In this document: positions 822 to 63,196 of the stretch, in pieces
Position numbering within the stretch: the first letter of the stretch is position 1
Layout of the letters: the number at the start of each line of letters is the position of its first letter
From: Lethocerus indicus
Taxonomy: Eukaryota > Arthropoda > Insecta > Hemiptera > Belostomatidae
Length of the DNA: 64,000 bases
Assembly: GCA_019843655.1 (NCBI GenBank)
Contig: JACDQD010000103.1
Location: 558,001 to 622,000 of the forward strand
Reading direction: 5' to 3'
The notes under the pieces: model-generated
Seen by the model: only the letters and a program-made list of their open reading frames with translations
The model's database searches: none
Told to the model about the DNA's origin: nothing
Translations under genes and position numbers: made by a program

Positions 822-1065
822 GTTTTGGGGTGTGCGAGGGTTGGAATACCGTCGATTTCGTGTGTTTCTGCCTGCCTCTCACCGGTCTGATCTTTCGCTA
901 GACCGGTTTCGGCACTGACACGGTCACCAGTACAAGTGACAGTGACAGTGCAGTGAGGATGCCCCCGAAAAAACGTCCAAAGTGTTGAAGGTGGCGTGCG
1001 GCCGAAACCGGTCTAGCAAAAGACCAGACCGGCGAGAGGAAGGTAGAAACACAACAAATCTACGA
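822..1065. repeat. Foldback repeat copy A
   Basis: Left arm from GTTTTGGGGTGTGCGAGGG, right arm ending ACAACAAATCTACG. The left hammerhead-like block is cut off after CCGGTTTCGGC, and the right one has TTGAAGG instead of CTGAAGA, so neither looks active. Confidence 0.8.
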
Positions 1066-1697
1066 GCCTCTTTCAGTTGGATGGTGAAACATGAAATGGT
1101 TAAGGAATTCATTAAGATAAATGCGAATATAAATTTCGTATAAAAACGATGCAAAGACTGACACCGTCCGGCTTTCCGCCATCGTCAGTAGCTTTTAGTC
1201 AGTAATATAGGTAGATAAACTTGTCACTAGAATTGCTGAGAAGACGAAATCTCTCAGGGTACAAACGAGAAGGGATTAAAATTTAAATTATCTTACTTTG
1301 ACCCCATTAACTTGATAGTTTCTGGGCGCCAATATTTAAGGCAAAATAATTATTCCGTTCCAATAAATGAAACGGTAATAAAAAAAAAAATATACCGTAT
1401 TCGCACGAGCACGCTATCCAGTACCACGTTTTTTCAGACGAATCGTTAAGTCTTTTTCCCCGAGTATTCTTTTCCGGGAAGGAACCCGGAATTCTGTAAT
1501 TACAGGAGTTCCTGCTAAGAAGGAAGATAAACTTATTCTGAGAACTATACTCTACAGACAATAATGTGCGGTATTTTCCCGGTTATGAAATAAATTAAAC
1601 GGGAATAGGTTCCCGGGGACGGTACCTGTCCGCAGTGTGGACATTCGATTGTTTAGAGCCGCCGTTCTTCATAAACGAGTAAAAGCAACAAATTTAT
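1066..1697. other. No gene seen
   Basis: Mixed AT-rich sequence between foldback copies A and B; open frames are short and unconvincing. Confidence 0.6.
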
Positions 1698-2075
1698 TTT
1701 TAACATACCCGTTTTGTGGTCTGCGAGGGGTTGGAAGTACGCCGTCGGTTTGTGGCGTTTCTGTCACCTCTCGCCGGTTCGGTCTTTTGCTAGACCGGTT
1801 TCGGCCGATCGCCGTCTTCAGTAGCGGTGTCGGTCACTGTTGGGCCACTTCGGATGTTTTTCGGGGGGGCCAACCTTCCCACTGCACTGTCACAAGAAGA
1901 CAAAACATACGCCCCAAAACACAATAACGAGACACGTCTATAATAGTACAAGTGACGGTGACACAGTGCAGTGAGGATGCACCCTGAAAAAAATCCAAAG
2001 TACCTACAGTGACTAACACCGCTACTGAAGATGGCCGAAACCGGTCTAGCAAAAGACCAAACCAGCGAGAGGAGG
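1698..2075. repeat. Foldback repeat copy B
   Basis: Complete left terminus (TTTAACATACCCGTTTTGTG). The right arm is truncated after CAGCGAGAGGAG. The left arm keeps an intact ribozyme-like block; the right arm has lost stem II (core followed directly by TGGCCGAAA). Confidence 0.85.
1789..1825 (-). ncRNA. Hammerhead-like type I ribozyme motif, copy B left arm
   Basis: Read on the minus strand: GCTA, CTGAAGA, C, GGC-GATCG-GCC, GAAA, CC/GG, TC, TAGC. All positions needed for a CUGANGA...GAAA...UH hammerhead core are present, with one unpaired C before stem II. Confidence 0.6.
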
Positions 2076-3069
2076 ATTTTTGATATTGTTTGTTCGATGA
2101 ATCCAACAGGTGGGCGGAAAAAATTTGTTTTCACAATTCTTGTGATCTCTGTGTGTTTGTCTGTTGTATTTCACAGCTTTTTAATCACTAGGTCGCCTGT
2201 TGGGGCATCCTGTTTGCACTTCCACCGCGGTAATTACGGATTCTGCCATCGATCTATTGTCATTGTTAAAAGGTTATTCGGTCGTAACAAAATTGCCTAG
2301 ACTGGCAAAAATCGATTCTCGGTATTTAAAATTTTTCGGCATTAAAAAAATGACAACGTGAGAAAAAACTATCTGCGCGCTCCGAAACGCCTATCGTAAA
2401 ATGGCAAAATAGTTTAAGTTGAAAGTAAGATTCATACATGACACAAGAATGTAGGATTCGTTCTAATCACTACTACTATTCTTTTCTTATCAGTTTCTGT
2501 TTGAATCGATTTCTTGGGATTGTTGTACCGGTTTAGCTTTAAAAAAGTCTGTTATATAGAGGGCCTAGTCCTCTAGGTGCTCAATTAAAAAAATGTTTTT
2601 AATGCGAGCGCCTGTTTAAAGTGTGCCGGAACAACACCCCAGGGAGGAAAACATGCCCGTTATCGTACAGCACGTCCCCCACTTGAGGGATGATTTTTGA
2701 CGCACCTTGTCGAAAAGGGGGGGCGAGTTTCGCATATGAATTGTTCGATCCACCACTTCACCCCTTCTGAGTGGGGGGGGCTCATCGGCAATGCAAATAT
2801 TGGACTTGAAAATTTACGGACGGTGCCGATACGCAAGTTGCCAGACATCCCCCCGGGCTAGTGCTATACCCCCCCAACCGAGAACAAACTTATTGCCGTG
2901 TTCCGTTTTGTATTTTAGTTCGAACATCGGTCCCGTTTAGCACACCAACGGGGTGGGAGTCTCATTGTATATCGACCCTTCCGATAACAGACACTATTTT
3001 ATGTATACACGTGGCGTGACAATAATGATTCTCGGGAGGGGGGGAGGAGAGGGGAGCTGAAAAAAAATA
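2076..3069. other. No gene seen
   Basis: AT-rich first half, then G- and C-runs; nothing recognised. Confidence 0.6.
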
Positions 3070-3522
3070 CCTCTCGCCGGTTCGGTCTTTGCTAGGCCGG
3101 TTTCGGCCATCTTCAATAGCAGTATGTTAGTCACTGTTGGCACTTTGGATGTTCTTCGTGGGCATCCTCACTGCACTGTGTCACTGTCACTTGTATATAT
3201 TTGGAAGTACATCGCTTCAAAGTTCTGTCTATAAAATTAAATTTCCCAAATTTTGTAACATATATAACATAGATCTTTTGCCCTCCGTTCGTCTGTTCCC
3301 GTCACGTGGATTTAATGACAAAACCACCACAGTACAAGTGACAGTGCAGTGAGGATGCGCCCAAAAAACATCTAAAGTGCCGAAAGTGACTGACACCGCT
3401 ACTGAAGATGGCGAGCGGCCGAAACCGGTCTAGCAAAAGACCGAACCGGCGAGAGGGGACAGAAACACACGAAATCTACGGTATTCCAACCGTTCGGAGA
3501 CCAAAAAACTGGTATGTTAAAA
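3070..3522. repeat. Foldback repeat copy C, with central spacer
   Basis: Left arm truncated at its outer end; right arm complete to GGTATGTTAAAA. About 3205-3320 is a non-palindromic spacer (TTCTGTCTATAAAATTAAAT onward) that recurs at 10.8 kb in the same orientation and at 21.6 kb reversed. Confidence 0.9.
3398..3434 (+). ncRNA. Hammerhead-like type I ribozyme motif, copy C right arm
   Basis: Consensus form. Stem I GCTA (3398-3401) pairs TAGC (3431-3434); core CTGAAGA 3402-3408; stem II GGC/GCC with loop GAGCG; GAAA 3421-3424; stem III ACC/GGT; predicted cleavage after C3430. Confidence 0.65.
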
Positions 3523-4543
3523 TACCTTTTTACTGATATTCGACTGTTCGCGGAACTAATTAAAACATTAGTTCTTCGATTTACGAGTTCCTCTGCGCGT
3601 CGACACCGCTACAATGTCCAGTGATTTCGGTGCAGTCGGAGTTTCCCATTTGCATTCGAAACAAATTTTCTCCACTTTCCCGATCTCGATTCTAGGTTTT
3701 CGGTCAATGCCAGTAGCACTCCGTTAGAAAATTAGTTGCCAGTCCGATAGAACCCAATATATATGGGATTTAAAGAGGCCGATTGTCAAATCGAATTTCC
3801 TACACGCTTAGCCAGTATTTTTTGGAGCCTCGAAACAACATTAGTTTGCCAATTCGGCTCTAACCGAACTTTGAAAAATTAGGTCGAGTTTTCGTTCAGT
3901 CGGACAGTTTATTTGATGCTAGTGGATATCACAGCGTCGTGATTTCATTCGATTATTAATAAATAAAATTTCTTATATATTCTGATGTTGCCTGTAGGAT
4001 CCAAAATTGCAGAATGCAGAAACAAAATCGGGAAATAAATATTTTATTTTGAAATTTTGATTTTCAATTATTGAATTGTGACTGATTTCAATACTGTTTT
4101 CCGGACCAAAGATTAGTATTTGACCGGCGGGAGTTCCAATTTTAGCCGAGAGTCAGACGTATCGTATTTCCCGAGCTGTGAGCGGTCGGCGCATTTTCCC
4201 GTCTGTTCGTGTCCGTTTTAGAAAATTCGAACCGGACAAGGGAGAAATAATTCCGGCGGCAAATCCCGGTTAATTCGTGGACCGGTTGAAGGTAGCCGCC
4301 CGTGAAATGGGGGAGGGCGGCCATCATAGCCCACGTTTACTGTTTTATTTCGGCTTAAAGCCCGGCTCCGGCCACCCCTATCCGGTCCAGAAAATCCGAT
4401 GGGGGCCGCAACCCCACGGGAGCAGTGACTGCGCCCTGCAGAACAATTACATGTAACATTAAACCTCTCACGGAAGAACGGTAAACAGTACGGAATAACT
4501 GTTACGCGGTCGGCGAGGTTTCGGACCACCGTAGTTTTATTGG
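3523..4543. other. No gene seen
   Basis: Nothing recognised. A short motif CAGTAGCACTCCGTTA at about 3711 recurs near 18750. Confidence 0.55.
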
Positions 4544-4648
4544 ATCTTTCGCCAGACCGGTTTCGACCATCTTCAGTAGTTGTGTCTCACTACAGTACTT
4601 AAAGACAGACGTACTGAAGATGTCAAGCGGTCGAAACTGGATTCACAC
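4544..4648. repeat. Degenerate foldback copy D
   Basis: Small palindrome: CCAGACCGGTTTCGACCATC on the left and GTACTGAAGATGTCAAGCGG on the right around a 40-bp centre. Only the ribozyme-like blocks are recognisable and both are damaged. Confidence 0.6.
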
Positions 4649-4783
4649 AGCAAGATGAGATTTGAAATTTGATTCTAGAGGAAGGATGCATTTTAAGCCT
4701 CCACAGCGGTATGAGCGGGTATGAGGAATGAAACAAATGGATGTTCTTAAATTACTTAACACAAAATAACATACATGAATTTG

Positions 4784-5069
4784 AGTTTAACATACCTGTT
4801 TCATGGTCTGCGAGGGGTTGTCTCTGTCTCCTCTCGCCGGTTCGGTCTTTTGCTAGACCGGTTTCGGCCGCTCGCCGTCTTCAGTAGCGGTGTTGGCACT
4901 TTGGATGTTTTTCGGGCATCCCCCACTGCACTGTCACTCCGTCACTTGTACCGCGGCGCCTAACACCGCTACTACGGAAGATGGCGAGCAGCCGAAACCG
5001 GTCTGGCAGAAGACCGAAATCTATATTTATTCCAATCCTTGGCAGATCACAAAACAGGTACGTTAAACT
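4784..5069. repeat. Foldback repeat copy E, both outer ends present
   Basis: Runs from AGTTTAACATACCTG to GGTACGTTAAACT and so defines the mirror-image termini of the family. It has no central spacer. No clear target-site duplication was seen. Confidence 0.9.
4852..4888 (-). ncRNA. Hammerhead-like motif, copy E left arm
   Basis: Intact core on the minus strand with C as the extra base before stem II. The partner right arm has a 2-nt insertion and a base change (CTACGGAAGA) and is broken. Confidence 0.6.
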
Positions 5070-6637
5070 AAAAATCTATTTCCCAACCAGTTAAACGTTG
5101 AAAGATCGATTGTGAAAACCGCATACGGGAACGGAACTGATGCCGGTGGCGTGCGGCCAAAGTTTTTCCCCCGCTATTGAAAATTGCAACCGGCGAAACG
5201 AGGGCAGCTCATAAACTGGCGTGCACTCATTAGAAATCGGTTCGGTAGTTTGTTCCCGAACAACTGGTTTGAATCCGAAGTGCGGCTGTCGAGCGGCCGC
5301 CGCTCTCGAATTACGAGCGGCCCTGCATAATGAGAGCGGAGCGGATCCCGGGGAATTGCAGTCATTGAATCAGATAAGCCGGAAATGCAAAAAACAACTT
5401 AGTGAACTAAAAAAAAAAAATTGAACTAAAACCGTTGTTTTGCGAACGAAACGAGACGGATGAAAATCCCTATACGGATGAGACACAGCGGTGACATTAT
5501 CAGAAAAACACATTATGGACGGAATAATTATACGTCAGCCCCTTTGAATTACGGCTTTACCCCATCGACGGTACCGTTCTGTCGGTGTCGAACTGAGTTA
5601 GTTACTCAGTTACTCTCGTTGCCGGTATTGAGGAGGCCGTGAGCGAGGGGTGGAAATTTCAGATTCGATAAATATAAACCCCGGATATTATTTATATTCA
5701 GAGGATCGTACGAGGGATTGCCAAATACAAGCAGATTTAGTTTCGCCAACTCCAAACAGCAACTCTACAAATACTGAAATTTGCGGTGAGCGACCAAATA
5801 TAGAATCGATGTTGTTCGATAAATGTATTGGCCCCTTTTAAACAAGAAAAACCTAGATATTTTAATGTAGTAGTTTCAAGTATTTTGAAACTGTTGAAAT
5901 TATTCTTAACTGACTGATTTAGGTTGGGTATAGAGAATTGTCTTGCCGGTGGAATAGATTTTTTTTTGGTTGAAATTTGTAATTGAAGGAAAATCATTAA
6001 AAAAACGTGTCGAAGTGCGATCGAATCAGGGTGGCGAACGGATTTTTTTTTCAATTTCATATTTTCGTATTTACCTCTTTGGGGCTCCGGTACAGTGGAT
6101 AAAATGTTTTTCCTTTTTGAATTTTTCCTCCGATCACGGACAACCAATCCGTGTTCCGGTTTTGTCCCGCCGAAACCCCTTTAAAACCCGTCCACGGGCG
6201 GCTGAAAAACCCAGCCGACGGGGGGGTGAAAAACAACGGTCGTTTCACAGAGTTTCCTCGCACAGCGCGTCATCAACACACGAGGCTCACACACGGCCCG
6301 AATTTCCATATGATTGGAACCGACGTAGCGTGAAAGTCTCAGCGTGTCAGCCCGACCTGCTTCAATCTCGGTTGGGGGAACACTCAATTAATATTTGTCT
6401 CTTCGTTTAGATTTTCACATTTTCCCAACTGCGAGGCCGGCGCTAAATACATTTTTTTGCAGCGGAAATTTTCGCCAGATTGACACCCTTCGCGAACCTC
6501 TGCCTTTTTCGCTTTTTCCGCATGTTCTTCACCGGCGATAAGAGACCGGTTTTCAGAATAGTGGATTTACAGCAGAATAACCTGAATGAATTTTGTAGAT
6601 TTCGTGCGATTCTGTCTCCCCACGATGGTTATTATTA

Positions 6638-6720
6638 AGACACGTATAAACACACGACAAATAGACAACCACCACAGTACAAGCGACAGTGAGGAGGCCA
6701 CAAAACAAGTATGTTAAAAT
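6638..6720 (+). repeat. Foldback fragment F
   Basis: Right-arm remnant: ACCACAGTACAAGCGACAGT joined by deletion to GGCCACAAAACAAGTATGTT. The hammerhead-like block is deleted. Confidence 0.7.
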
Positions 6721-7243: not shown

Positions 7244-7246
<3 letters not shown>

Positions 7247-7291: not shown

Positions 7292-7295
<4 letters not shown>

Positions 7296-8607: not shown

Positions 8608-8653
8608 AAAAGACCAGCGAGAGGAGACAGAAACACAACAAATCTACGGTATA
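8608..8653 (+). repeat. Foldback fragment G (right-arm tip)
   Basis: AAAAGACCAGCGAGAGGAGA through AACAAATCTACGGTAT, starting just 3' of the ribozyme-like block and abutting the LINE fragment at 8607. Confidence 0.8.
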
Positions 8654-9370
8654 TATAGAGAGATTTTTCTAATAAGTTTTCAACATATTTATAGAATACA
8701 ATTCATAATATCAGTGACTATATAATTATTGCAGCATTAAAAACGTAAATGATGTAAATGATTTTAATTACCCCTTCCGACAGCATGATTTATTTACTAA
8801 CTGCATTTCGAAACCGAACCGGGCCTACGTTTCCTCTAATATACGAGCGCTTTAAACTGTTTCAAGGACGGAAAACACGAAATATGCTGTATTGTGAATA
8901 CTGTACAGCGTTTATTTCAAAGTGACGCAGGTTCTTAAGATAAGAGGGGGATGCAAGTCCCATCACGTAGCTCATAGCCGGACGCCCCTATCAGAATGCG
9001 CTGGAATTGCACCCCTCAATTTATCATCAGTTTTCCGACCCCCAGTTTTCCTCTCTCCCTCTCTCATTAATATTTTAGGAGGAGCATATTTCTGGTGAAA
9101 TATTTATGGCCAGAACGCTCGGAGACCGTTATCATAATCGCCGTTTTTTATGGTGTTCGCTACCACCACCGAACCACCGCCCCCTGCGACAGCATTAAAA
9201 GTTTCCCCGGCTCCGGGTAAAACCGAAATTGAAATTCCGTTTCGGACAATTCTTCGAATTCTGCGGAAAATAAATCGACTGATAAATTCGGCCCGGCTTC
9301 TGGACGGACTCGAAGAAGTAAGGAATTTCCTTTAGACTAGTCCAATGGTACATTGAACAATATTGGCCGA

Positions 9371-9465
9371 CCGTAGATTTGTGTTTCTGTCTCCTCTCGC
9401 TGGTTTGTTGTTTTGCTAGACCGGTTTCGGCTGCTCGCCATCTTCAGTAGCGGTGTCACTGTCAC
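9371..9465 (-). repeat. Foldback solo left arm H
   Basis: Single arm from CCGTAGATTTGTGTTTCTGT to the CGGTGTCACTGTCACTT segment with no partner nearby. Its ribozyme-like block is intact on the minus strand. Confidence 0.85.
9415..9451 (-). ncRNA. Hammerhead-like motif, solo arm H
   Basis: Intact on the minus strand, stem II loop GAGCA. It occurs in an isolated arm, so the motif persists without the palindrome. Confidence 0.6.
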
Positions 9466-10639
9466 TTTAAAATCTTAAATTAGTCATAGATTGTTTATTA
9501 GACGTACAATATTAGAATAAAACACCTGCTAACAGGTTTTTTGTGAAATTCAATGTAATAGTTCTTATTTTGAGCGTTAAATTGGAACAACAATTAATAA
9601 AATTTATTCTTAAATATGTATTATCTATTGGGCTGATTGTCTATTTATATTAATTTGTAACAGCTGTACAACTATTTGGGATATTGTCTCGGCTAGCTTA
9701 TCCAAGCTAAATCACCCGATTCGGCTTCTCGCCACGGCCGGCTGGTAGGCCTTTTTGCGGCGTATAGCAATAAATTCGAAACCTTTACCCGCTTTATCAG
9801 TGGGGCCTATTTTCCGCGCCGAGAATACGCTTTCCACCTGAACGGCAGATTTTCTCGGCTTTCCTCCCCCCCTCAAACTCCCGAGTAGGAAAAGCCGTTA
9901 AAGTCCTCGGGGGGGGGCCCTGTGACTTAAACTGCAATAAAAGCCGCTGTGCTTTCCTCCGAGAATCCCGCCCCTTTCCTACTCGATACACCGGTTAGAG
10001 TTTACGACCCGGCAATTTGCATGCGCTCACCCCCATACACTATACATATATATACAGTCGACGCTAATGACTCTTATGGCCCTTCTATCCTTTTGTTTCC
10101 ATCCTCGAGAAACTTTTCGTTGAATTTAAAATGGATTCATAACTACGGTATAAATCAGATCGCGTACGGAATGCGAACACTGTACGCGTTCTAGTATTGT
10201 CAGCCATTTTCAAACGAAAATTTGACCTCAAATAATCAAATTATAGTAAGAAAGAATGAGTGAAAGCGATCAGAATTGTTCGACATAATTCTCCGTTAAA
10301 TTATCCTGGGTTTTCACCTTTTCCCCAATTGAAGATTCTGGAAGATTTAATACCTCATACCAAAATTTCTCCCCAGAGTACTACGTGATATCCCCGAAAG
10401 TTAGTTGATAGTAAATGAGAATAACGTTTAAAAACAAGATATAAACTCTTTAAAACTGTATTCATATTATATTGATGTAATTTTGTAGAGTGACCGATGA
10501 AATTGAAGTAGACGTACAGGTATGCACTACAACCGCTGGAATTTATAATTAAAATTTGTTATATGTAATGGAAATAAATGGATTGAGCCTTTTAAATGCT
10601 GTTAAATTTATAGATATCTTTTAAAGGACATTTCATATA
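9466..10639. other. No gene seen
   Basis: AT-rich with a GC-rich patch near 9800-9980; no coding pattern. Confidence 0.6.
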
Positions 10640-11136
10640 CCGTAGATTTCGTGTGTTTCTGTCTCCTCTCGCTGGTTTGGTCTTTTGCTCGCCATCTTCA
10701 GTAGCGGTGTTAGTGACTTTTGGCACTTTGGCTGTTTTTCGGGCATCCTCACTGCACTGTCACTGTCACTTGTACTGTCTTGGTTTGGTCATTTGCTAGA
10801 CCGGTTTCGGCCTATAAGTGCTGTCTATAAAATTAAATTTTCCTAAATTATGTAACATAGATGTTTTTCACTCTGTTTGCCTGTTCCTGTCATGTGTCGC
10901 ACACGTGTCAGACACGTATATATACACACGACAAACAGACAACCACAAGTGTACAAGTGACAGTGACAGTGCAGAGAGGATGCCCGAAAAACATCCAAAG
11001 TGCCAACTAACACCGCTACTGAAGATGGCGAGCAGCCGAAACCGGTCTGGCAAAAGACCAGATCTATACGAGACAGGAATATTCGAAATCTGCCGTATTC
11101 CGACCCCTCGCAGACCACAAAACAGGTCTGTTGAAC
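10640..11136. repeat. Foldback repeat copy I, with spacer
   Basis: The left arm lacks the stretch from GCTAGACC to the core, but a displaced CTAGACCGGTTTCGGCC sits at 10795-10812, suggesting internal rearrangement. The spacer as in copy C follows. The right arm ends CACAAAACAGGTCTGTTGAA. Confidence 0.85.
11015..11051 (+). ncRNA. Hammerhead-like motif, copy I right arm
   Basis: Intact core and stems II and III. The stem I 3' strand is TGGC, which still pairs with GCTA through one G-U pair at RNA level. Confidence 0.6.
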
Positions 11137-13055
11137 AAGATTTCATGTCTTTTTCTCAGCGGCACCTCAACCTCTAAACATGACTTACCGTCGCCTGAGA
11201 GGGGGGGGGATCGATGCAGTCCGACGGCCACTGCGACTAACGGGGGCCCGGATTTAGGGGTAAAAATAATAAAAATAAGGAGCAGATTTAGGCTAAGGGT
11301 TGAGCGTGGAAGGGCGCTAACAGAGTTATAGGCGGGATTAGGAGCCGGTAACGAGGGGGACATTAGCCCCGACACTGGGGTTGGCCCAATTCCCGAACCG
11401 GTTTTCTCATCCCCCTTCTATTTCTTCCCTTTCTAACCCCCCCCCCCCCGGGCCCACACACAGTGTTTGGGGTTGAAGCGAACAAAGAAAAAACTCCCAA
11501 GAAAAATCGTTTATACCATTAACAAAGGGGCGGCCACGACCGCAATACAAACAAGCCAAAAAAAAAAACTCTTAACGAGTGACGAAAGCGTCGTGATTAT
11601 TTCAACAAAAGGCGAATCCGAAACTACAATCAATCATAACAGTTCCTCAGTGAAAAGTTATGGGCATGTGAACCTCCATTAACAAAGAATTTTGAAAGAA
11701 GACTAAGTTTAGGATCTAGAATTGGAAAGACGGAGTGCGAAGGCTGTAAACGTTTCGGCTTGAATATCAGGGGCGAGCAATTAATTGAACAAAATTCATT
11801 AATTGACTTTAATTAATTCAGTTGGGCCTAATTAAGTAACAAGAAAGCCTCTTTTAATAGGCTATTTTAAGGGGCGCGTTTCAATTATCAATGAATTGAT
11901 TCGATTGATCGCCTCTCCTGTGTTTTCCTTTCCCTAGACCGGTTTCGGCCGTCCGCCGTTAAATAGACACGAGGCGATGATGGAAAGGATAACAGTGCGA
12001 AACGCCAATGTCGATATTTCAAGCTAAATAATTCATAATTTCTAAGCGTTTTTAATATTTTGAAAGCGACGGAAAATGAACGGACAGAACGAAGCTGTAT
12101 CGGAATTAAAATCGGCATTTATCAAAACTCCATTTTCCAGACGTTTTGTTTTCTTTTCCTTTTCTAGACGGGCCCCCCCCCCTATAGATCACTGTGGGGG
12201 CCCCCTCAGTGATATATGAAGTAATTTGTTGTTTGCGCCGCTCGGCTTGGCAGCGACAGATTTGCAGGTCTAATCCTGCAGCCCGTTCATGATTTATTTC
12301 TTCGGCCGTGGGGGGGGGGGGCGGCGGCGGTATGGGGGCACCTCTTAATCCGACCTTTAAATCTATGTCGTTCGACCCGGCTTTTCCGCGAAAACGGCTA
12401 TAAACGAGGAAATAATCGAACACCCGTCTGAAAAATTACACACCACTTATGAAATCTGTCCGAATGAAAATCTACCCCCCCCCACAGGGGGATAGGGGGT
12501 TGAAATAGACGGGCGATTAATCGTCCCCCCGTTTGTTTTTCCGCTTTACAGACGGTCCGGTGAAAATGTAATCGTTCAGCGGCCAGAACGGGAAATGACC
12601 GAGCGCTGAGTCTGTAATTTTCGGACGTTGAAATTCCTCCGTTACGAGAGCAGTAAACAACACGACATCCAACATAGTTCGCATCCTTTGGACAATCCTT
12701 AATACTCGACTAATATCTGGTTATTTCAAAAACAAGCTCCTTGATCAAAAATCATTCGAAAGGTCGAACAATAAAAATACGGAAACAGAAAAAAATCATC
12801 AACTGTGACCCTCTCTAATTTAAAGAAGGAATAATGCTACTGAAGACACGATAAGGGTAAACCGACGAGATGGGAAGAGGCTTGAATATACGCCTGTAAT
12901 TCTGAACCTGTATAATCCCTACAGTGTAACCTATAATCCAATAATCCGTAATAAATATCAATAATGTATAATAAACCTTGCCATATAATCCTTACCGCTC
13001 CTACGTATCCTCTCTATAATGGTAGCCAAAGAGTATGGAAATATACCTCAATATA
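11137..13055. other. No gene seen
   Basis: Several homopolymer C/G runs and AT-rich TATAATCC-like repeats near 12900-12990. A weak foldback-core echo (GCTACTGAAGACACG) at 12837. Confidence 0.55.
11934..11960 (-). repeat. Foldback core remnant J
   Basis: Only CTAGACCGGTTTCGGCCGTC and a few following bases remain, the GAAA / stem III / cleavage-site side of the block. Confidence 0.5.
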
Positions 13056-13794: not shown

Positions 13795-13834
13795 GTAGAC
13801 CGGTTTCGGCTTCTCGCCGAATCTTCAGTAGCGA
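13795..13834 (-). repeat. Foldback core remnant K
   Basis: Solo core: TAGACCGGTTTCGGCTTCTC then GCCGAATCTTCAGTAGCGA. Minus strand: GCTA, CTGAAGA, then TTC before GGC-GAGAA-GCC, so a 2-nt insertion lies in the core-stem II junction. Confidence 0.6.
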
Positions 13835-15259
13835 GTCACATTGTTTGGTTACACGTGGGGTATGTATATAAACGTCCTATCATTGATTATGACATGATTA
13901 TTGCACGTTAAATAATATTTATTTAATACGTTTTAAGCCTACATTATGTTATGTTAGCCGAATTATTTAAATTATAATTAAGAAAGGGGTTGTACCTTTC
14001 GTACAAGTTTAAGAAGAGTTTATCAATTTATGAGAATTGTGATAAATGTACGTGCGTTAATAAATATTGTAGCATAAAAGTTTATCTGGTTTGTTTGATC
14101 GGTCTGCGAGGTATTTCAGGTGGTGTCTTTTCTGAAAACGTCCACTAAGAACTTTCGGAAGGACACAAACGAATAGAATCGTTTGTAAACCATTGAAAAT
14201 GCTGTAAAAAACGTTTATAAAAGCCAGAAAATGATTAAAAAAGGCCCAAAATTGCGTTCATATACGCTTAAATTATCGTTTTTAAGCGTATATAAATGCG
14301 ACTTTGGCCCTTTTTATCCTATTTCCGTCCATAGTGGATCCAATGTGAGATACACTTGTCCCATAAAGACAGTTGAAAAATCGAAAATTTAATTTTTTCA
14401 AAAATGTTTCAGCTAGCGTCGCGGTGCTCGTGCATCCAACCAAAACAGACCATTAAAATTCTGCCAGAATGTGAGTTGAAATAGTGTTTCCAGTTCCGAG
14501 AGAATAAAAGAGATGGAGCGAGGGATGTCTCAGGAAAAAATTCTCGAACTGAGTCGCTTTAAATATGCGATAAGAAATTCGAACATTGGAAAGGGGAGCA
14601 CGAAAATACTGTCACGATTCAATAATAGCAAAAAACGCGGCCGGGAAGACGTCAGTGCGGGGAACGCTACTGAAGACGTGTGAAAGAAGACGGGTGAAAA
14701 ATCGGTATATCGAAAAAGGCGAAAATTGTAGCGTTGCTTTGGGGCGACAAACAGAGACTGTTTTTCTTCATTTCGGCCGGCGGGTCGACGGGACGGGAAA
14801 CGGCCGCCGATATACGGGTGAAATAAGCGGGAAAAGCGGAAAAAATATTATCAGAGTCAGGAGGAGGGCGAGCCTCTGTTTTCAATTCGAGAAAAGTCGA
14901 CGTCGCGCAGACACAACAGAACCGATTGTGCGGGGGGGGGGGGAGGAAAAATGCAACTGCGGGATTTTTCACAACCGGTTTTCAGCAACTCGAGTCCCAT
15001 TCCAATCAGTTATCTTCAATCGGAAAATAGTCCCTTGTCTAAATAGCGAAGCACTTCCGACTTTCCCACGTGATCCCCTGATATTAAATAGGGAATAAAT
15101 GGAAAACAGGAATTTCATATTCTGCAGTCACCGACCTTTATCCGCGTACGCTGGATTGATAGAATTTTAACCAGCAATAATACTATATACGTACAATGAA
15201 ATATTAAACAGAAATATTACGGTTTGATGAGACTAGAAATGAAAATTATAATTCTAGTC
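13835..15259. other. No gene seen apart from the hairpin
   Basis: A 170-codon frame at 14586-15098 starts without ATG, is Arg-rich, lies in a purine-rich tract and shows no domain. Confidence 0.55.
14237..14317. repeat. Long imperfect hairpin
   Basis: Arms of about 34 nt (starting AAAAAAGGCCCAAAATTGCG and ending TTTGGCCCTTTTTAT) pair at about 80% around a 12-nt loop, and the inner part TATACGCTTA/TAAGCGTATA is perfect. It could be the core of a MITE or a hairpin RNA precursor. No flanking terminal repeat or target duplication was recognised. Confidence 0.5.
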
Positions 15260-15580
15260 AGTTTAACATACCTGTTTTGTGGTCTGCGAGGGGTTGGAAT
15301 ACCGTAGATTTCGTGATTTTCGTTTCTTCTCGCCGTTGTGGTCTTTCGCTAGACCGGTTTCGGCCGCTCGCCACCTTCAGTAGCGGTGTCAGTCACTTTC
15401 GGCACTTTGGATGTTTTTCGGGCACCCTCACTGCACTGTCATCCAAGTGCCGAAAGTGACTGACACCGCTACTGAAGGTGGCGAGCGGCCGAAACCAAAG
15501 GTCTAGAAAAAGACCGAACCGGCGAGAGGGGACAGAAACATACGAAATCTACGGTATTCCGACCCCTCGCAGACCACAAT
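15260..15580. repeat. Foldback repeat copy L, near-perfect palindrome
   Basis: Both arms are present with almost no loop (turn near 15440). The left terminus AGTTTAACATACCTG is intact; the right is cut after GCAGACCACAA. Both arms carry the same CTGAAGG change in the core, and the right arm has AAA inserted at the stem III turn. Confidence 0.9.
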
Positions 15581-45145: not shown

Positions 45146-45186
45146 AAAGGAAGTTAATTATTCTATTTGACATTATATAGTAGATA

Positions 45187-46045: not shown

Positions 46046-46510
46046 CTTTTTGCACCTGAAGAGGGCTATAATGGTGATGAGGTTGCCGGGTATGCCGACC
46101 AGCATGAAGAGGACGCAGCAGGCGGACGCCACAGTGAGCAGTGTCGCCGAATAGTCCTCGAAGAGTTCGACCTGCAGGTCCTGGGGGCGGTCGCCGAACA
46201 GGTCCGGGTAGATGGGCTCGTCGCCGGAGGCGTTCAAATATGAATTGTTGGCCGTCGAAGAAATTTCGGCGCTCTGCAGCGGCGACTCGTCCAGAGCCTC
46301 GGCGTTGTTCAACACCGCCACGAGGATGTTGGTGTCGTAGTCCTGGTAGTTGTTATTCATCGTCGGTGTCGTTATTCCTCTCCCCCCCCTGGTCGGTATT
46401 ATCCTCTCTCTGTATATCACTCGCGCCTCCGCCCACCGAGAAGAGTACACTGCTGGGACCGTACTACCATCGCTCCTGTGTACGCGCACCGCCTCCTCTG
46501 TTGTCGGCCA
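46046..46510 (-). CDS. GPCR exon: 5'UTR plus N-terminus and TM1 (moody/Tre1-like, partial)
   Basis: Exon of a rhodopsin-family G-protein-coupled receptor on the minus strand. It opens after a good acceptor (TTTCTGTTTCAG) at 46511-46512, has about 150 bases before an ATG at 46358-46360 (A at -3), and codes 105 residues to 46046, where it meets a donor AAG|GTATGT in phase 0. Residues 1-70 are acidic and hydrophilic with two N-glycosylation sequons (N38-N-S, N43-A-S), as expected for an extracellular N-terminus. Residues about 72-100 form TM1 with the class-A GN motif, FMLVGIPGNLITIIALFRC, then basic KK starting loop 1. The GIPGNLITI-ALxRxKK pattern recalls the insect moody/Tre1 (trapped in endoderm) group; this subfamily is from memory, the GPCR class is firmer. 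TM2-TM7 should lie at lower coordinates and were not found. The frame is open back to the acceptor, so a start in an upstream exon is possible. Confidence 0.75.
46361..46510 (-). promoter_or_regulatory. Probable 5' leader of the GPCR exon
   Basis: Bases between the acceptor at 46511-46512 and the first ATG at 46358-46360. No stop occurs in frame, so this may be untranslated leader or coding sequence joined to an upstream exon. The upstream exon and promoter were not identified. Confidence 0.45.
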
Positions 46511-46588
46511 CTGAAACAGAAAATATAATATTGAAACGAAGCCAAAAGGCGGAGGGCGGCTCTCTTTATTAATACACCGCCGTCCGCT

Positions 46589-47131
46589 AGCTAACTCACT
46601 GCCCGGATTCGATGTGTTACCTTCAAACAGGTAGAATAAACACTGCACAATATAACAGACAATTCGATCTAATAATGTAGCACAAAGATACATTCGGGTC
46701 ATTTTTACTATGTATTTAACGGCCTTAAAAATGTACCGTATAATATATCGAAAAATAATTATTTCGATTACATTCGACGAATCTTACAAAAAGTAGTATG
46801 CTCGTTTAATGCTTCGGTTTTTTTTCAGGTCAAATTTGACCTTACTTTGTCTGTTATATGTTGTTGTACAGCTAACTCACTCCCCGGCTTCGATTTGTTA
46901 CCTTCAAACAGGTAGAATAAACACTGCACAATATAACAGAAAATTCGATCTAATAATGTAGCACAAAGATACATTCGGGTCATTTTTACTATGTATTTAA
47001 CGGCCTTAAAAAATGTACCGTATAATATATCGAAAAATAATTATTTCGATTACATTCAACGAATCTTACAAAAAGTAGAATGCTTCGTTTTTTTTCAAGA
47101 CAAATTTGACCTTCCTTTTTTTGTTATATGT
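46589..47131. repeat. Tandem duplication, unit 281 bp, two copies
   Basis: Copy 1 is 46589-46869 and copy 2 is 46870-about 47131. They begin with the same AGCTAACTCACT and share nearly all bases through an inner palindrome GTCAAATTTGAC, with a few substitutions and a short deletion in copy 2. The array starts about 80 bp upstream of the GPCR exon acceptor, so it lies in the upstream intron or 5' flank. High identity means the duplication is recent compared with the other repeats here. Confidence 0.85.
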
Positions 47132-49555: not shown

Positions 49556-51467
49556 GTTGGGGAAACGCTTAGAGGCACGCTTCGGATAAGAACTCTGAAG
49601 GGATGAAACTTATAATTGTGAAAAATGCGTTAATCACATTCGGCGAATTAAATGAATTGCCTTAAGTACACGAGTCTATAAAGTTGGATTAAGTATTGTC
49701 TTGACAAACCTCCGAAAGATGAAACTGCGGTTAGACACTCAAATATCTTCAAGTTGTTTGCGCGAACTTCCGACAAAGTTTTCATATATTGATAATTGTG
49801 TTTCCGCTGGCCGGGTTAAGTCGGTCGCATTTGAGTTTCGGCTTCCAATAAAAGCGGAAGCGGAATTTAATTCCCGTAATCTGAAACTTTAAATCCCGGT
49901 TACTTAAAGCTCTGCAGGGCAGGACTTTATAATAGTTAAGTTTAAGTTTTGATGCAACCGTTTTAATAAAGCGTTCGATTCGACCGATCCGCCGACCTCT
50001 TATCTTCTGAAACAACTTCATGAAATTGTTACAACTTGAAATTGGTAAGTTGAGTTTAATTCAGATATGGCCCCGTTTTCACGAGAAATGTCTGCTGGCG
50101 TTTTTGTGCGGCTAACTGATTCAGAATCACTTCCAACTTCGGGATTTCGCTCCGAAGTAATCCAGTAAATAAGATGAAGGAGATTAACCTTTATAATTGT
50201 CTGAATATCTCGTTGTCGATAACAGTAAAGTACGCATTTTTGTTTTCAATTTTCGATAAACCGTCCGCACTTAAGGCCCAAGTTGATTCTAAACCCCTAT
50301 AGACAAGCCCACAAAGGGCTTTGACTTTCGACCCTTGCACCAGCAAGAAGTCCCTTATATCGTCTACGGTATCTTGCCTATATAACTTCAATCTTGCGTG
50401 AACCGCGGCCGGGCTCACAAATGGAAGATTTAGTTTGCCAAAAGGGCTAGATTTAACTCAGCGTTATTGTGCATCACTGAGCCGGCATCTTAGCTATTAC
50501 AGTTGGAATTCCTTTGACTGCAAAACTAGGTTTTAAACGAAAACCACATTAATTTCAGTCTAAACTCCTATCGTTGCAATCGTTCATAGAATTGTTAACG
50601 ACCGTGAAGGAAATGGCAAAAACCCTTCCTATGTAACCCCCGCTCAGGCAGTTTCCAAACACAGGGAATACCTGGAGGTTCCTCCCACAACATTAGGTTA
50701 TCCCAGGGGAGGTAGTTAGTGATAATAGATTTAAATTAGTTAAGAACTTAAAGTCTTAAAGTAGCGGAACTTTCCCAAGTGCCACTTAGACTGGGGACTT
50801 AAATAAAACATGACCGAAGGGAGCCCCTACAGCGTGTGTCGGGCTATTGACACCGTAAATAAGTAATAAGCGGGGCCGAATTTACCCTTTGACTGAGACT
50901 CAGTTCGGGGCTTTTTACGCCCTCCTTATCGGCAGAGAATATTCGAAACGTCCCTTTTCCGTCTCTCGGGGTCGTGGACCTCGGGACGTCTCCACGTGGA
51001 TAAACTCAGCCTTCCGAGCGGGCAGTGGAGATACCTCCCCCTCGGAAGAAGAAGAAGTAGAAGAAGACCGGGAGTGGATTATGAAGTTGAACTGAAGATT
51101 ATACCCGGTGTGAAGTTTCCCTTTAGGTATTCGGGCTTGAGCGGGTGGAAACTCGGGCGAAAATGGATACCGCCCGCCCCCCACACCACCGTCGGCCTTA
51201 GAACAACTTCCCTAATTGGAAAATTTAGAAGTTTTCCGATCGTTCCTCGCTCCTCCTTGTCGACAGACAAGCCAATAAACAATGCCAAGGTAAAAAAAAA
51301 CACTGAACCTCTTCCCTTCTATTTTTGAATAAACATTCCTTTTTAACTATTTTATTGTCACAACTGTAAAAATACAACCAGCGATACTGTTTTACAACTA
51401 GCACTAAAAACAAATACAGAATATACGGAGGTGAAACCAACTGGTTTTCCCCTTATTTTATAATTGC
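49556..51467. other. No gene recognised apart from the small frame at 50191
   Basis: A GAA-rich patch at 51045-51070; overlapping frames at 50890-51330 lack domains. Confidence 0.5.
50191..50415 (-). CDS. Unidentified small open frame, protein-like composition
   Basis: The minus frame RLKLYRQDTVDDIRDFLLVQ continues about 73 residues to a TAA with little low complexity. No ATG; a possible acceptor GTGAG precedes CCCGGCC. No domain recognised and no poly(A) signal directly after. It could be a terminal exon or chance. Confidence 0.18.
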   Translation of the reverse strand, partial: SPAAVHARLKLYRQDTVDDIRDFLLVQGSKVKALCGLVYRGLESTWALSADGLSKIENKNAYFTVIDNEIFRQL

Positions 51468-51682
51468 TCTTTTGCTAGACTGGTTTCGGCCGCTCGCCGT
51501 CTTCAGTAGCGCTGTGTTAGTCACTGTTGGGGCACTCCGGACGTTTTAGCACAGTACAAGTGACAGTGACACAGTGCAGTGAGGATGCCACCGAAAAACA
51601 TCCAAAGTGCCAACAGTGATTTAACACCACAAACCTACGGTATTCCAACCCCTCGCAGACCACAAAACGGGTGTGTTAAATT
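51468..51682. repeat. Foldback repeat copy V
   Basis: Left arm from the core inward, right arm with an internal deletion of its core (AACAGTGATTTAACACCACA). The right terminus GGTGTGTTAAAT is present. Confidence 0.85.
51474..51510 (-). ncRNA. Hammerhead-like motif, copy V left arm
   Basis: Core intact; stem III has one C-A mismatch at its tip (ACC/AGT). Confidence 0.5.
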
Positions 51683-52804
51683 AATTTATTTAATTTATTC
51701 GGGCGTCTGTAAGAACCGTTCGACATGTCTGGACCATAGGGATTCTTGAGTGAAATTGGTTTTACTTTTTATGGCGATATAACCCATTAAAATCGGCATT
51801 TAGGGAAGGGTTGGAGACGCGGTAGGGTGTGCACGGGTGTTTTTCTTGGTATATTCGAGTGTACACCTCGAATTTTATTAATTTCCGATTGTTTGGCACG
51901 AAATTTTCGGCCAATAGAGGGGGAAGAAAAAGGGACACAATTCCCCCATTGTTTTTAGATTGGGATTCGGGTGTCGGGGATTGATTGGGTGGACTTAATT
52001 TTACGCCCGACGCATATTGGAATGCGTAAATGAATAATGAGGAATATAAGGAGCTGTATGAGAGTGAATATTAATGCCACTGAAGACCGGGAGGAGCTGA
52101 ACAGCGCTGGAACAAATCGGCGAGCTGTATTCCGAAGCCTTGAGGGCCCGACAGTTAATTAACAATATATGTATAGGTATGTGCTATTTGTAATAATACT
52201 GTAATAAAACGGCAGTAAATTGGTACAGTCGTGTAAAACAGGGACTTGGGGTGGGGTAGAACGAAGTGTAAAGTGTAACCGGCGAGAGTGGAAGGACACG
52301 TGTTCGGCCTGCTCTCGGCGAAACCCCTCCTACTTTCTTCTTTTCACCAGATGCTTTTCCCCCCCCTTTAACTTCATTTAGATTTTACCACACTACCCGA
52401 GGCTAAGCCCCCGGAGGGGAAGCCGACCGACAGTCTGAAAGTGGAACAGAGGGGGGATCTTTACGACCCCGACGTCTAAACCGGGCCCTTACCAAATTAT
52501 GCTCGGACGATTTCATTCTCCCAAACGAATATACCTCATATTGAAAAATTTCGAATATCCACTACTTGCAATTAAGCTTAAATTTTACTCAGGCTAAATT
52601 CCTAAGTGGGACAAAGCGTCCGGGACTTGTGACAAATTTAAAGAAGCGTTACGTCCGCATTTTTCTTAAAAAACCCACCGTCAAGTGTGTAAGGCGAAAT
52701 GTGTAAGCGAATTTTTTACGACATTATTTGTTCAATAAAAATATAATCGAACATTAACACACAAGCTACAGTACTGTGGATTCCTGTTACTACTAAGTAA
52801 TAAA

Positions 52805-58200: not shown

Positions 58201-58721
58201 TTTTTTTTTTATTTTGTACAATCAACATTGAATGTTATAAGTGCAAATGCTATATGTATTTTTTTCGCACGTATTTCGTGATAAAAGCAACCACCCAAAG
58301 ATGGCACTTTAGACACAAGAACAATTGTAGTCTAAGGGCTCGGAAGATCTCTATAGGGGGGATAATGGATGGGTAAGAGAGGAGAGGGACTGAACGAGTG
58401 GATTGGGATGAGGAGAAAGGCGGGAGTGGAACTTCGGGAACAGGGATTTTGCGACTTCGTCGACTGTCGGTATGTTGAGGTCATTGTGGATTGTCTGGTT
58501 AGAAACATACCTGGGGGAGCATTGAGGATGGTACGAAGGCCTTTTCACTGAAATCTCTGGATGCGAGCGATGTCGGATGTCTTGTGGTGGAACCCCATAG
58601 CTCTAAACCGTATGCCGTGTCCGGTTTAAGTATCGCTTTGTAAATTGCCAGTTTGTTACTCAAGATCAATTTTGATGTCCGTTTTAGTCCAAATTTTCTG
58701 GTCGATTCTTTTGAGTCGGGT
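58201..58721 (-). mobile_element. Jockey-like LINE 3' end, minus strand
   Basis: Reverse-strand copy with the full 3' UTR (its end at 58201-58220 reads TTGTACAAAAT followed by A's) and the coding end with LSNKLAIYKAILKP, AYGLELWGST and FHSRLSPHPNPLVQ in different frames because of indels. It retains the LELWGS motif lost at 19.5 kb. The long plus-strand open frame over this interval is only its antisense. Confidence 0.8.
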
Positions 58722-60474
58722 AGAACTAAAGACGTTTTGTTGTACTCTACCGTTTTCAAATCTAAACTATCCGAAAAATTATAAAATTTAAATTCAAGAA
58801 AGCGTAATAAATATTGGAAAGAATGGACAGATATTTCAATACGTTTCCTGTACAGATCGGGTACATAAAAAGGGTTCTTGGGACTCTTCGAACAGTGTTA
58901 AATATCAGGGTAATATTGAATATACAAAACTGCAGCTATGAGCTGAACAAATGCCGTTGTCTACGAAAAAGTGAAAAATTGTCTTTCGGAGATGACGGAT
59001 ATATTTTTTCCTTCCTGAGGAAGTTTTGACTCGTGGGGACTTTTCCACCCATTCCACCCCGCTAACGCCCCATATAATATAAAAATCGAGATATAAGGCC
59101 CATTTATAAAATACGTTAGAAGTCCTACCGAACCGAGGAGGAGGACGTAAAAACGACCGTATTCTCTGTATTTGTGCTGACGCCCAACTTAGCCGGCCTC
59201 CAGACCGCCCGGGGGACTTACTAAGTCAAGCCCCCCCCTCTTTACTTATCTCCGACACTAAACTTGGAAAACCTTCTCAAAACAGCCCCTACAACACTAA
59301 GTAAAAAATAACAAGAGATGCGTACAAGTGCCTGTATTACAGCCTATTATATTTACGGTAATCAATCCTCTAATGCTAGTACTTCTCATTGGTGTGGTAT
59401 TAACAATTTACAATTGCATTCTCTAGAGAAAGAACATATAATATCTCACTATTATCATTCAAATCATGGAATGCCATTGTTCCTATATTACTACCAGGGT
59501 TGTATACCTGCAATTATAATAGTAATCAATTCTGAATTCAGTTATTGCGTTTCTGAACAACTCCTTCGAATTTAAAGTGTAGTTTTAGCTTCAGGTTGAA
59601 GTCCATTGAGGTGTGTTATTTGACAGCACAAATGCCGCAAAACTTAGGCGAATCGGGAGTTCAGAAAAGCGAGCATAAAACTGAAACTGTGAAAATCAAG
59701 ACCGGGGGAAGTTCCAACAGCGCCTACAATATCTCTCCGCGAGGCTTTTCTACTTGGGAAACGTTGTATTCCTATACATTTCTCATCGTAGAAAGTCCTT
59801 ATCGTATAGAAAAGTTCGAGCGTAAACGGAAATACTGGTGGGCGACAAGAGATACAAAGGGCCGTTGGAGAAGCGGCTCGTCTAATCCTATTCCATTGTT
59901 CTTATTTTTGGCCCCTCGTCAACTGAAATGAGATAATTTTCATTGTCAACAACTGCAAGAGCCGTCGGAAACTTACAGTCTCTTTTAGCGTCCTGTATAT
60001 CACTTTCGAGTTTATCCTCCGATTTCTGGTTTATCCTCCAACTTCCACGAAAAAAATGATTGTAATTATCAAAATATTTCGGCTGTCCGCACAAAAGGGA
60101 TGCAATTAAAAATTACTCATCGTTAATTGACGACCGGCTGAAAAATTAATTTCTAAACGACACCGATCGTTGAACAGTTTCGGCGCTTTGTTCTCCGGCC
60201 AATTTAATCTCACAACTCTCATGCCACTTAACTGAGGTAAATAAAAAAAAACATTTCATAATATTATACACTGTCACTAAATATAATTATTAAATTGTGG
60301 TCGCGCCTTAAAATATAAAGAAAACAAATTAGAATGGCCAGAAATATTTTAAGCAAATTTTTTCAAATTAAAGGAATTCAGGGAGGATTAGAGTTATTTT
60401 TGTGTTAACTTTAAATTCCTCGTTCCTCCAGAGTATTCTTAATTTATCCTCTACACGATAGTCCCACCCAACAG
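58722..60474. other. No gene recognised
   Basis: A frame at 59596-59931 has protein-like patches but no domain or splice support. Confidence 0.5.
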
Positions 60475-60818
60475 CAGATTCAAAAGAATCGACTTAAACA
60501 GAAAATTTGGACTCTTAAGGCCATTACTAAAACGGACATGAAAATTGATCTTAAGTAACAAACTGACAATATACAAAGCGATACTTAAACCGACATGGAC
60601 ATGCGGTATAGAGCTATGGGGTTCCACTGAGACATCCAACATCCAGAGATTCCAGTCAAAAGGCTTTCGTATTTATCCCTAATGATCCCGCGGTATGTTT
60701 CTAACCACACAATCCACCATGACCTCAACATACCGACAGTCGAAGAAGTCGCTAAATCCCGGTTCCTGAAGTTCCACTCCCGCCTTTCCCCTCATCCCAA
60801 TCCACTCATTATCCCCCG
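60475..60818 (+). mobile_element. Jockey-like LINE fragment, lacks 3' UTR
   Basis: Begins TTCAAAAGAATCGACTTAAA, then encodes FGLLRPLLKRT, LSNKLTIYKAILKPTWTCGI and ELWGST in nearly one frame, the best-preserved coding segment of the family. After the HPNPL region it jumps by a deletion to TTATCCCCC and ends, so the 3' UTR and poly(A) region are missing. Confidence 0.75.
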
Positions 60819-62938
60819 GGTAACGGTAAGAAGGGTTAAAAAAAAAATAAGAAACACGAGAGTACGTATATGTTTTGGTTCCCTGTTCAGCGTTAAGATC
60901 ACATTATATCGCTATTAAATTGAATTGGCGACTTAAAATTTAAATAAAAAAAAATGAAGATTAGAATCCCGAAATGGCTCCGTGTTCTCGACTGTCCATG
61001 AACCGAACCCGGGGCTTAAATCAGGACCGAATGAATGGGGGTCCTCGTTCATTGAGTAAGGCCGTAGCCGGAGTGAGAGTGAGAGTGAAAGAGAGCCACG
61101 CATGCGAGAGAGGCAAGCCGGGGATGATTCTCTTGAATGTTTTCTGTCTCTTTCCACCCCCACCCCCATCGACCACGGGGGTGTTAGTCGAGGTTGACTT
61201 GACGTTGGGGTGGGGATGAAAATTGGGTTTACTTGCGGCGAGGCCGCACACCCAACAACAAAAAGCCCGACTTTATTTCTACAAAAGTCTACACTTGTAT
61301 TAAATCCCCGCCCACCACCCCCTCCGCAGTAGGGGGAGCTTAAGCCGGGCCTAATTAATGGCGCTTTTTGCATTAAAAGTCCCTTCACCATCGGGCCGAA
61401 TAAGACCTTTATATAAAATACCCGGTTTTATTGCGCAAACATCGTTATCTCACCCAGTACAAATTCTGTTTTTTTTCCAGCCCCAGCCCCCGTCCTAATT
61501 GTGAAGACCGTGAATTGTTTCACTAATTCGAGGTGGAAATCTTGAAAGGGAGTCGCGACGGGAACGCACTGTACAATTAAGTTCGATTGAACTCAGTTCC
61601 CCAAACAAAGTGCAAAGTTGATGGTCAAGTGTAGAGTGTATCGAAGTCCAGCATCGCGAACGCTGAAGTGAAACAAGTTCAGCGCCTAATGTGTAATGAA
61701 TGTGTTTGTGCCAATGATTTGTACCGAAATTTGGTTAAAATGCAGAATAGGCCCCCCCCTTGATAACCTAATAGGCGAGGTTATATATCGATATCTATTT
61801 CAACGTATTCTTTCCACATTCAGGACACACATACTGTCTCTTTCCGGACTCTCATTCCCTCAAACTCGTCAAAAAAATACAAACTCAACCTTTCCATACC
61901 CACAAAAGACGTTATGCTTCTATAAAAAAAATAATAATAATAAAAACTGTTGCCTACAGCGTATGTCACGATATCGAATGAAACAGAGGGTCCTCTATTC
62001 TGCATTTTAACCCCAAATTTAAATTCTTGGTTTTTGTCATGTAACATTCAGTATTACCGTAACAACATTGTGAACAATGCAAGTCCTAATACTAGTGTAA
62101 ATAAGTGTATAAAGGCTCGTCGTGTGGTACAACCTATACTATACTACAATACCAAGGCCCCCTGGAGAAATGATTTTAAGGTGGGAAAATAGCAGACGCC
62201 AGTGTTCATTGAACTAACCGACAACGTTTCTGAAACAACTGTCTATTAAAGTGTAAACTGTTGTAGCTCTGTCTAGTGAATAAATAAATAGATAATGAAT
62301 AAAATCATCGAGGTGTGTTCCAATTGGACGCTTTCCGCGAAGTAGCCAGCCCCGTCCCTTATCTTCGCTGGAGGAGCGTTTAGAAAAGGCGAAAGTTTGC
62401 CTCGGCCCGAGCTCAACTTATTGTAAAGCGCAACTTTTTGCATTAAGCCCAAAACAGTTCCAACTTTTCACTGAAAAACCCGAAGTAAAAACCGATTCCC
62501 TTCTCCTATTTTCAATTATTCTTCTGGAGGGTTTTTTCCAGTCGCTTTGTCTTGAAATCTCGGCGGAAAATTTGCCAACTTCGCCTCTAATGAAAATACA
62601 TTTCTTTTTCTTTTTTTTAGCTATTCACCATTGGATTATCGATCGCTGAAGGTACGTATAGAAGATTTCATTCCTTCGTCAAATATTCTGACCAACGCAT
62701 TGAGACACTGCATCTTCTTAATATCTAGTAAATTCTTCGAAGTTCAAACAATCTCAGGTAGAAAAACTTAGCAAAATAAAGCGGAAAGCACTAAAATAAT
62801 TTATATATTGGTTGATATATTCCATCCTATTGTTAAGACCAACTTAATAAGTCATGAATTCAGTGTATTGGAATGTTTTTTACAACGTTATAGCTAATTA
62901 TACTTAATCTCCAAACGGAATAATTCCAAACCAATAGA
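60819..62938. other. No gene recognised apart from the possible microexon
   Basis: GA-rich patch at 61070-61100; several pyrimidine-AG acceptors such as TTCTGTTTTTTTTCCAG near 61480. Confidence 0.5.
62621..62651 (+). CDS. Possible 31-bp microexon
   Basis: A strong pyrimidine tract and acceptor (TTTCTTTTTCTTTTTTTTAG) end at 62620, and a strong donor AAG|GTACGT follows 31 bp later. One frame gives YSPLDYRSLK. Two good sites at this spacing are uncommon by chance, but no neighbouring exon was identified. Confidence 0.25.
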
Positions 62939-63196
62939 ATTCGTGTGTTTCTATAGTCACTATTGGCACTTTGGATGTTTTTTGGCAATCGAAATCCCCC
63001 AAAAACACAATAGCAAGACACGCGCATATACACGCGCCAAACAGACAACCGCCACAGTACAAGTGCGTTGAGGATGGCCAAAAAACATCCAAAGTGCCAA
63101 AGGTGACTAACGCCGCTACTGAAGATGCGGCGAGCAGCCGAAACCGGGGTCTAGTTCTTTCTCTAGCGAGAGGAGACAGAAACACACGAAATCTAC
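62939..63196. repeat. Foldback repeat copy W
   Basis: The left arm lost its core (CGTGTGTTTCTATAGTCACT joins outer and inner parts). The right core is present with GG at the stem III turn. The stem I 3' strand is disturbed (TAGTTC). Confidence 0.85.
63115..63154 (+). ncRNA. Hammerhead-like motif variant, copy W
   Basis: Core with TGC before stem II and GG at the stem III turn. Stem I is only 3 bp (TAG). Confidence 0.45.

Follow-up and report, generated by a model that had tools for sequence, protein, structure and literature searches.

The 64,000-nucleotide stretch of Lethocerus indicus DNA analysed here, called the window (contig JACDQD010000103.1 of assembly GCA_019843655.1, positions 558,001 to 622,000, forward strand), carries a family of foldback repeats in which a hammerhead-type motif lies over a start codon. 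These repeats are very probably short non-autonomous elements made of head-to-head pseudo-long terminal repeats (pLTRs) of the Penelope type. A search with an arm profile (nhmmer) gave 40 arm pieces in the window, grouped into 23 clusters spanning 798-63198, in agreement with a first-pass annotation of the same DNA which had counted about 23 dispersed copies sharing inverted arms. The window pieces are part of the 152 found in the 360 kb of sequence examined by the whole profile search. Eight loci that were allelic or duplicates were removed, and 128 arm rows were kept for alignment. In the 427 Mb assembly (209 contigs), 2,773 first-look candidates were found genome-wide, 40 of which were scored. 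Furthermore, 7 of 20 evenly spaced 10-kb loci from two contigs have matches at E 1e-6, amounting to 33 pieces with 25 from two loci. Within each of the contig pairs C9/C100, C4/C99 and C8/C123 the match scores are identical, and the assembly seems to hold partly both haplotypes.

The best-bounded copy of the window is the whole foldback element at 29281-29624 (- strand), with arms at 29275-29488 (-) and 29470-29623 (+), a tailed end at 29281 and a short end at 29624. It is delimited by the clearest target duplication of the window, an exact 11-bp repeat, CTGTAAACAAC, at 29270-29280 and 29625-29635. The copy at 3070-3530 (+), from which the first-pass annotation drew its example, was delimited with the arm profile; its left arm stops at column 192, its right arm is full and its flanks match as AAAATACCT. 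In this element, the 37-nt string at 3398-3434 (+) contains GCTA/TAGC, CTGAAGA, a 3-bp stem II with a 5-nt loop, GAAA, ACC/GGT and GTC, with a predicted scissile bond after C3430, and the exact string is found in three arms of the window. The parts of a type I hammerhead previously reported there are thus present, with the reservation that stem III (ACC/GGU) has no loop. ACCGGU is loopless in most rows and a few have a 2-nt insert, so that helix III is not closed by a loop as in a monomeric hammerhead; acting as a monomer, the motif could close only its A-U pair over CCGG. Stem II does not directly follow A9: the unpaired pyrimidine already noticed at this place is present, as the U of an AUG codon or as C in 13 of 101 rows.

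Ten arms of the window, and three arms among 20 further 10-kb loci, fit a descriptor in which A9 may be followed by one extra base and helix III may have a loop of 0-12 nt. The type I core CUGANGA ... GAAA, with H17, is found in the consensus and in these 10 window arms. On one strand of 3.8e9 random bases (order-1 model) the descriptor fits 95 places, which gives a chance expectation of about 0.003 matches in the window, both strands counted; a chance origin of the motif was rejected on this comparison. Judged by its sequence, the string is a hammerhead-type motif within a mobile element. The motif was said to stand in each arm, whereas the descriptor is complete in only 10 arms out of the 40 pieces; these sit in 10 different elements, and no element of the window has a complete motif in both arms.

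The earlier proposal that the motif is the best-kept block of the arm is not clearly borne out, since its mean divergence is 0.079 vs 0.083 for columns 61-105 and 0.110 for columns 170-218. Within the motif, divergence is 0.042 at the 11 core positions, 0.071 at the 18 stem positions, 0.101 at N7, 0.129 at the extra base and 0.181 at the five positions of loop II. When the mask was slid over the arm, 3 of the 193 possible placements did equally well, among them the motif itself, and label permutation gave p = 0.00025 (0.0014 without the subfamily site), both tests taking positions as independent. This pattern suggests that the source copies were constrained at the hammerhead residues. All 11 core residues are kept in 51 of 73 complete rows vs 50.0 predicted under independence, indicating that individual copies decay independently and are not constrained; all core residues plus all pairs are intact in 30 of the 73. 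An older sister group of the arm has GAAAA as loop II, at 38987-39034 (-) and 29017-29047 (-) in the window and at L021:2923-2964 and L033:8525-8567 in other loci. Its helix III variants are ACTAGT, ATTAGT, ACCTGT and ACCAGT, two of the four being still self-complementary. Two-sided stem changes in two diverged copies are suggestive, but one of these copies, L039:6936-6979, was found via a structure model, which favours pairing, and the other, 38995-39034 of the window, is without A6.

From column 143 the arm consensus reads MASSRNRSSKRPNQREETETHEIYGIPTPRRPQNRYVKL, opening a reading frame whose ATG stands at 3408-3410 in the example; of at least 99 readable rows, 78 retain this triplet. On sequence alone, the motif spans this start codon (CTGAAG-ATG), A9 being the A of AUG, and the predicted cut falls 23 nt past it. 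Coding constraint was rejected as the cause of the conservation pattern, since codon position 3 varies least. When the frame was read on beyond the tail, the longest run was 146 codons (locus L032), with no domain recognised by eye. The open reading frames (ORFs) in the spacers of loci L040 and L049 and the approximately 330 nt which loci L009 and L023 have in common upstream of single arms were uninformative. A tandem unit of about 70 bp with its own short palindromes (TGCACTTGCACC) lies between or beside some arms, at L040:2990-3480 and in L049, L009 and L023.

The outer ends of the 152 arm pieces fall into two clusters about 41 nt apart, at columns 212-234 in 43 pieces and 254-267 in 79, the other 30 ending elsewhere. 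In a typical pair one arm ends at about column 215, and the other runs about 41 nt further, to GGTATGTTAAAC or GGTATTCTAAAC. Counted from the A of the ATG, the frame is entered for about 73 nt by the short arm and for about 115 nt by the tailed one. Three pairs were flagged as having both full ends; among them, 44339-45482 combines arms that belong to two adjacent elements. A hairpin with loop ACAAAACA is predicted next to the tailed end. Among 44 arm pairs, 34 have usable ends, and 20 of these score at least 7 for a flank duplication (7-13 columns, at most one mismatch), whereas 200 rounds of mismatched flanks gave 2.3 such pairs on average and never more than 6. In the window, the pairs starting at 3070, 29275 and 44333 score 8-11 and those starting at 798, 15256, 23216, 35046 and 45178 score 4-6; we attribute the lack of a clear duplication in most other window elements to their age. 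Unequal ends together with duplications of variable length indicate target-primed retrotransposition rather than a terminal-inverted-repeat transposon. A foldback or MITE-like (miniature inverted-repeat transposable element) DNA transposon with an accidental hammerhead-like string would account for the highly complementary inverted arms (134 nt, 97% in locus L003) and for the many copies without coding capacity. We judge this explanation extremely improbable in view of the unequal ends, the variable duplication length and a chance of the string of about 1.3e-5 per 266-nt arm, both strands counted. The terminal-inverted-repeat class itself was rejected, as neither equal termini nor a fixed duplication length was found. 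A tRNA-derived short interspersed element (SINE) is likewise not indicated, ARAGORN, which tests for intact tRNA genes only, having found no tRNA in the window.

The approximately 41-nt extension on one arm and the two end clusters correspond to a head-to-head inverted pLTR with an optional tail of 30-40 bp, and the short target duplications of variable length are those of Penelope-type ends. We read the arms as Penelope-type pLTR ends because these measurements agree with those published for a lizard and a rotifer element. In the account of a lizard Penelope element given in PMC11167929, reverse transcription starts 111-118 nt into the ORF, at an AC-rich stem loop, and two such start sites delimit the optional tail of 30-40 bp; in its hammerhead, C3 and G8 precede the start codon and the cut lies 26 bp past it. 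This element, Poseidon of Anolis carolinensis, resembles the window family in its hammerhead across the start codon, its two reverse transcription start sites, the 30-40-bp tail and the distance of 111-118 nt into the ORF, but differs in being autonomous with tandem pLTRs and in its own hammerhead, which needed protein in vitro. A rotifer Penelope is reported to have its first 12 codons in the pLTR, an inverted pLTR placed head to head, a tail of 31 bp on one of the two, and duplications that measure 8, 9 and 10 bp (PMC3846280). Pen2a of Adineta vaga and its relatives have, as here, the ORF start in the pLTR, an inverted pLTR with a tail of about 31 bp on one and short duplications; in the same source, Pen2a copies carry an ORF or captured sequence, whereas the present family is without a long ORF, and the main text of that source does not mention hammerheads. 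Two pLTRs in inverted head-to-head order, one of them tailed, are given as the typical Penelope structure (PMC3846280, PMC8969392), and Penelope elements generally are reported to have minimal type I hammerheads in their pLTRs (PMC6155905, PMC7761336). Penelope-like elements, named in the first-pass annotation, were a correct lead, but its view of the foldback arrangement as a notable variant is not supported in the light of these four sources. The finding is real, yet most of it belongs to a kind already published: inverted pLTRs, tails and hammerheads in pLTRs have all been described. What may be new is the high-copy head-to-head form without a long ORF, in an insect; no description of it was found among the matches listed in open-licence literature (titles and abstracts).

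The origin of the family would be a Penelope-like element, whose reverse transcriptase would mobilise the copies in trans. Each arm would comprise a pLTR end and the first 73-115 nt of the reading frame. The element RNA would most likely be reverse transcribed at a nicked target, from one of two places in the frame, which lie past the ATG by about 115 nt in the tailed arm and by about 73 nt in the short one, and a short duplication of the target would result. The motif over the start codon, with its palindromic loopless helix III, would be of the kind reported to work as a dimer in Penelope elements. As described in papers citing Lunse et al. 2017 and Cervera and de la Pena 2014, these hammerheads are of type I, palindromic, with helix III missing or very short, and reportedly act as dimers from tandem copies, while a foldback copy has one sense and one antisense motif. 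A palindrome is reported in PMC6466107 as necessary for dimers to form, and for eukaryotes tandem order as well; the foldback arms are inverted, and no tandem full-length copies were found.

A foldback element whose life cycle includes cis cleavage, by convergent hammerheads, of the transcripts from either strand would explain the complete motif in 10 window arms and the low variation of the core residues. Folding predictions run against it. The best fold of the 37-mer is at -9.3, whereas its hammerhead fold is at 0.0 when helix III has 1 bp and at -5.2 when helix III is left out, and for the dimer the double hammerhead is at -20.3 vs -26.6 for the best fold. In three arms the probability of stem I is 0.00-0.07 and that of stem II 0.02-0.68, and in L003, the single complete element that was folded, every one of the 37 motif bases pairs with the opposite arm. 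With the loopless helix III, the absence of complete motifs in both arms of any window element and the independent decay of single copies, this reading is very unlikely. The earlier claim that transcripts of either strand could self-cleave is not supported, on the same points of loop, fold and motif completeness and because the dimer mechanism reportedly needs tandem motifs in eukaryotes (PMC6466107), while an inverted pair provides one sense and one antisense. Cis cleavage of the foldback transcripts is unlikely on these models; any ribozyme activity would, we think, need tandem copies, trans dimers or protein, and the motif carried by foldback copies is probably a passenger without activity in cis, being paired with the opposite arm. 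The lizard Penelope hammerhead is reported as inactive in vitro without protein, and its loss left insertion in vitro unaffected (PMC11167929); a motif with a poor predicted fold may accordingly still have a role.

A non-LTR retrozyme-like origin, in which a small RNA circularised after hammerhead cleavage is copied by the reverse transcriptase of another element, would fit small, high-copy, dispersed repeats with a type I motif and no long ORF (compare PMC7229834). In the axolotl Amex1 hammerhead and non-LTR retrozymes, helix III is, as here, a single pair over a palindromic tetraloop; unlike here, these are described as tandem repeats with loop-loop contacts, for which small circular RNAs were shown (PMC7229834). 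As the present arms are inverted and the elements end about 50 and about 92 nt past the predicted cleavage site, i.e. not at ends set by cleavage, this origin is highly improbable.

Several results weigh against the Penelope-type interpretation. The window copies do not encode the telomerase-like reverse transcriptase that, usually together with a GIY-YIG endonuclease, characterises autonomous Penelope-like elements. A genome search for the GIY-YIG family gave three candidates and no match. A reverse transcriptase motif had no exact match in the genome and 14 matches with one mismatch, vs 24 for the reversed control; three of the 14 were read by eye and are not reverse transcriptase. Reverse transcriptase-like words had four matches in the sequence examined, all unconvincing, and no candidate homologue was found for the N-terminal 41 amino acids of the frame. 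Rfam models, whose use had been proposed beforehand, reported no hammerhead at the gathering threshold, at E 10 in the window or in the 71 nt around the motif. Compensatory change, on an excess of which the first-pass annotation had let its proposal depend, is weak: covariation is 0.091 vs a shuffled mean of 0.079 in 63 rows (51 distinct), 24 of 500 shuffles being as high, and 0.097 vs 0.090 in 106 rows (94 distinct), with 45 of 500. Codon positions 1, 2 and 3 diverge by 0.14, 0.124 and 0.096, i.e. the frame shows no coding constraint, and in A+C content the tail (0.68) is not above the remainder of the arm (0.70). The reverse transcriptase tests were limited and not sensitive, and the partner may be diverged, unassembled or extinct. 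Since they found no reverse transcriptase, the family is filed as non-autonomous, with Penelope-type anatomy, and not as autonomous Penelope elements.

A further proposal, which we hold rather unlikely, is that a SINE-like unit of two head-to-head pLTRs spread to thousands of copies after the reverse transcriptase was lost or became very rare; its dimer-type hammerhead, if active, would act only in trans between separate RNAs and be locked within the foldback duplex of a single one. If the Penelope-type interpretation is right, an apparent foldback DNA transposon would be a Penelope-type retroelement, recognisable by its start-codon hammerhead and two unequal ends. The internal reverse transcription start sites measured for a lizard Penelope element would be extended to another animal, an insect, and the family would offer a natural set of inverted dimer-type hammerheads for asking if the ribozyme matters in insertion.

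The remaining copies of the window were delimited with the arm profile and their complete motifs with the descriptor. The element at 1691-2127 (strand unassigned) has two arms, with a complete motif at 1789-1825 (-) and a motif without stem II in its + arm at 2018-2053. Both arms extend to the tailed end in the element at 4778-5073 (strand unassigned; complete motif 4852-4888, -). Complete motifs are also found in the elements at 10635-11143 (+; motif 11015-11051, +), 44333-44681 (-; motif 44595-44631, +; flank match TTAC[C/T]GTTAAA) and 45178-45491 (+; motif 45239-45275, -), and in the lone arms at 9364-9468 (-; motif 9415-9451, -) and 35958-36057 (-; motif 36020-36056, -). The lone arm at 43064-43255 (+) carries a motif at 43155-43193 with a 2-nt helix III loop (ACCGGGGT), and another lone arm lies at 21336-21518 (-). 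The two-arm elements at 15256-15579 (-), 23216-23693 (-) and 35046-35322 (+) are accompanied by those at 798-1076 (-), with a damaged motif, 20396-20630 (-), whose + arm breaks off inside the motif, and 62954-63198 (+), whose motif has insertions (63112-63158). The element at 51465-51689 (strand unassigned) is made of arm pieces. Arm fragments lie at 4482-4598 (-), 6587-6705 (several, strand unassigned), 8612-8652 (+) and 13796-13842 (-, motif damaged). The diverged relative at 38987-39034 (-) has ACTAGT in place of ACCGGT as helix III, loop II GAAAA and a changed A6.

Besides this family, the window contains an exon-like frame at 45917-46783 (-), for a receptor similar to the insect G-protein coupled receptor moody; it matches ten proteins at E 1e-5, nine of them named, all insect and mostly moody. 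A direct repeat of 143 bp, 97% identical (46589-46731 and 46870-47012, 281 bp apart), lies partly within this frame. Another dispersed repeat is present as three 116-nt copies, 70-100% identical, at 19494-19609, 33213-33328 and 60477-60592. Near it, the frame at 58499-58897 resembles what we take to be the end of a long interspersed nuclear element (LINE) reverse transcriptase. A tandem array of a 12-bp unit, in 24.9 copies, occupies 25545-25845.

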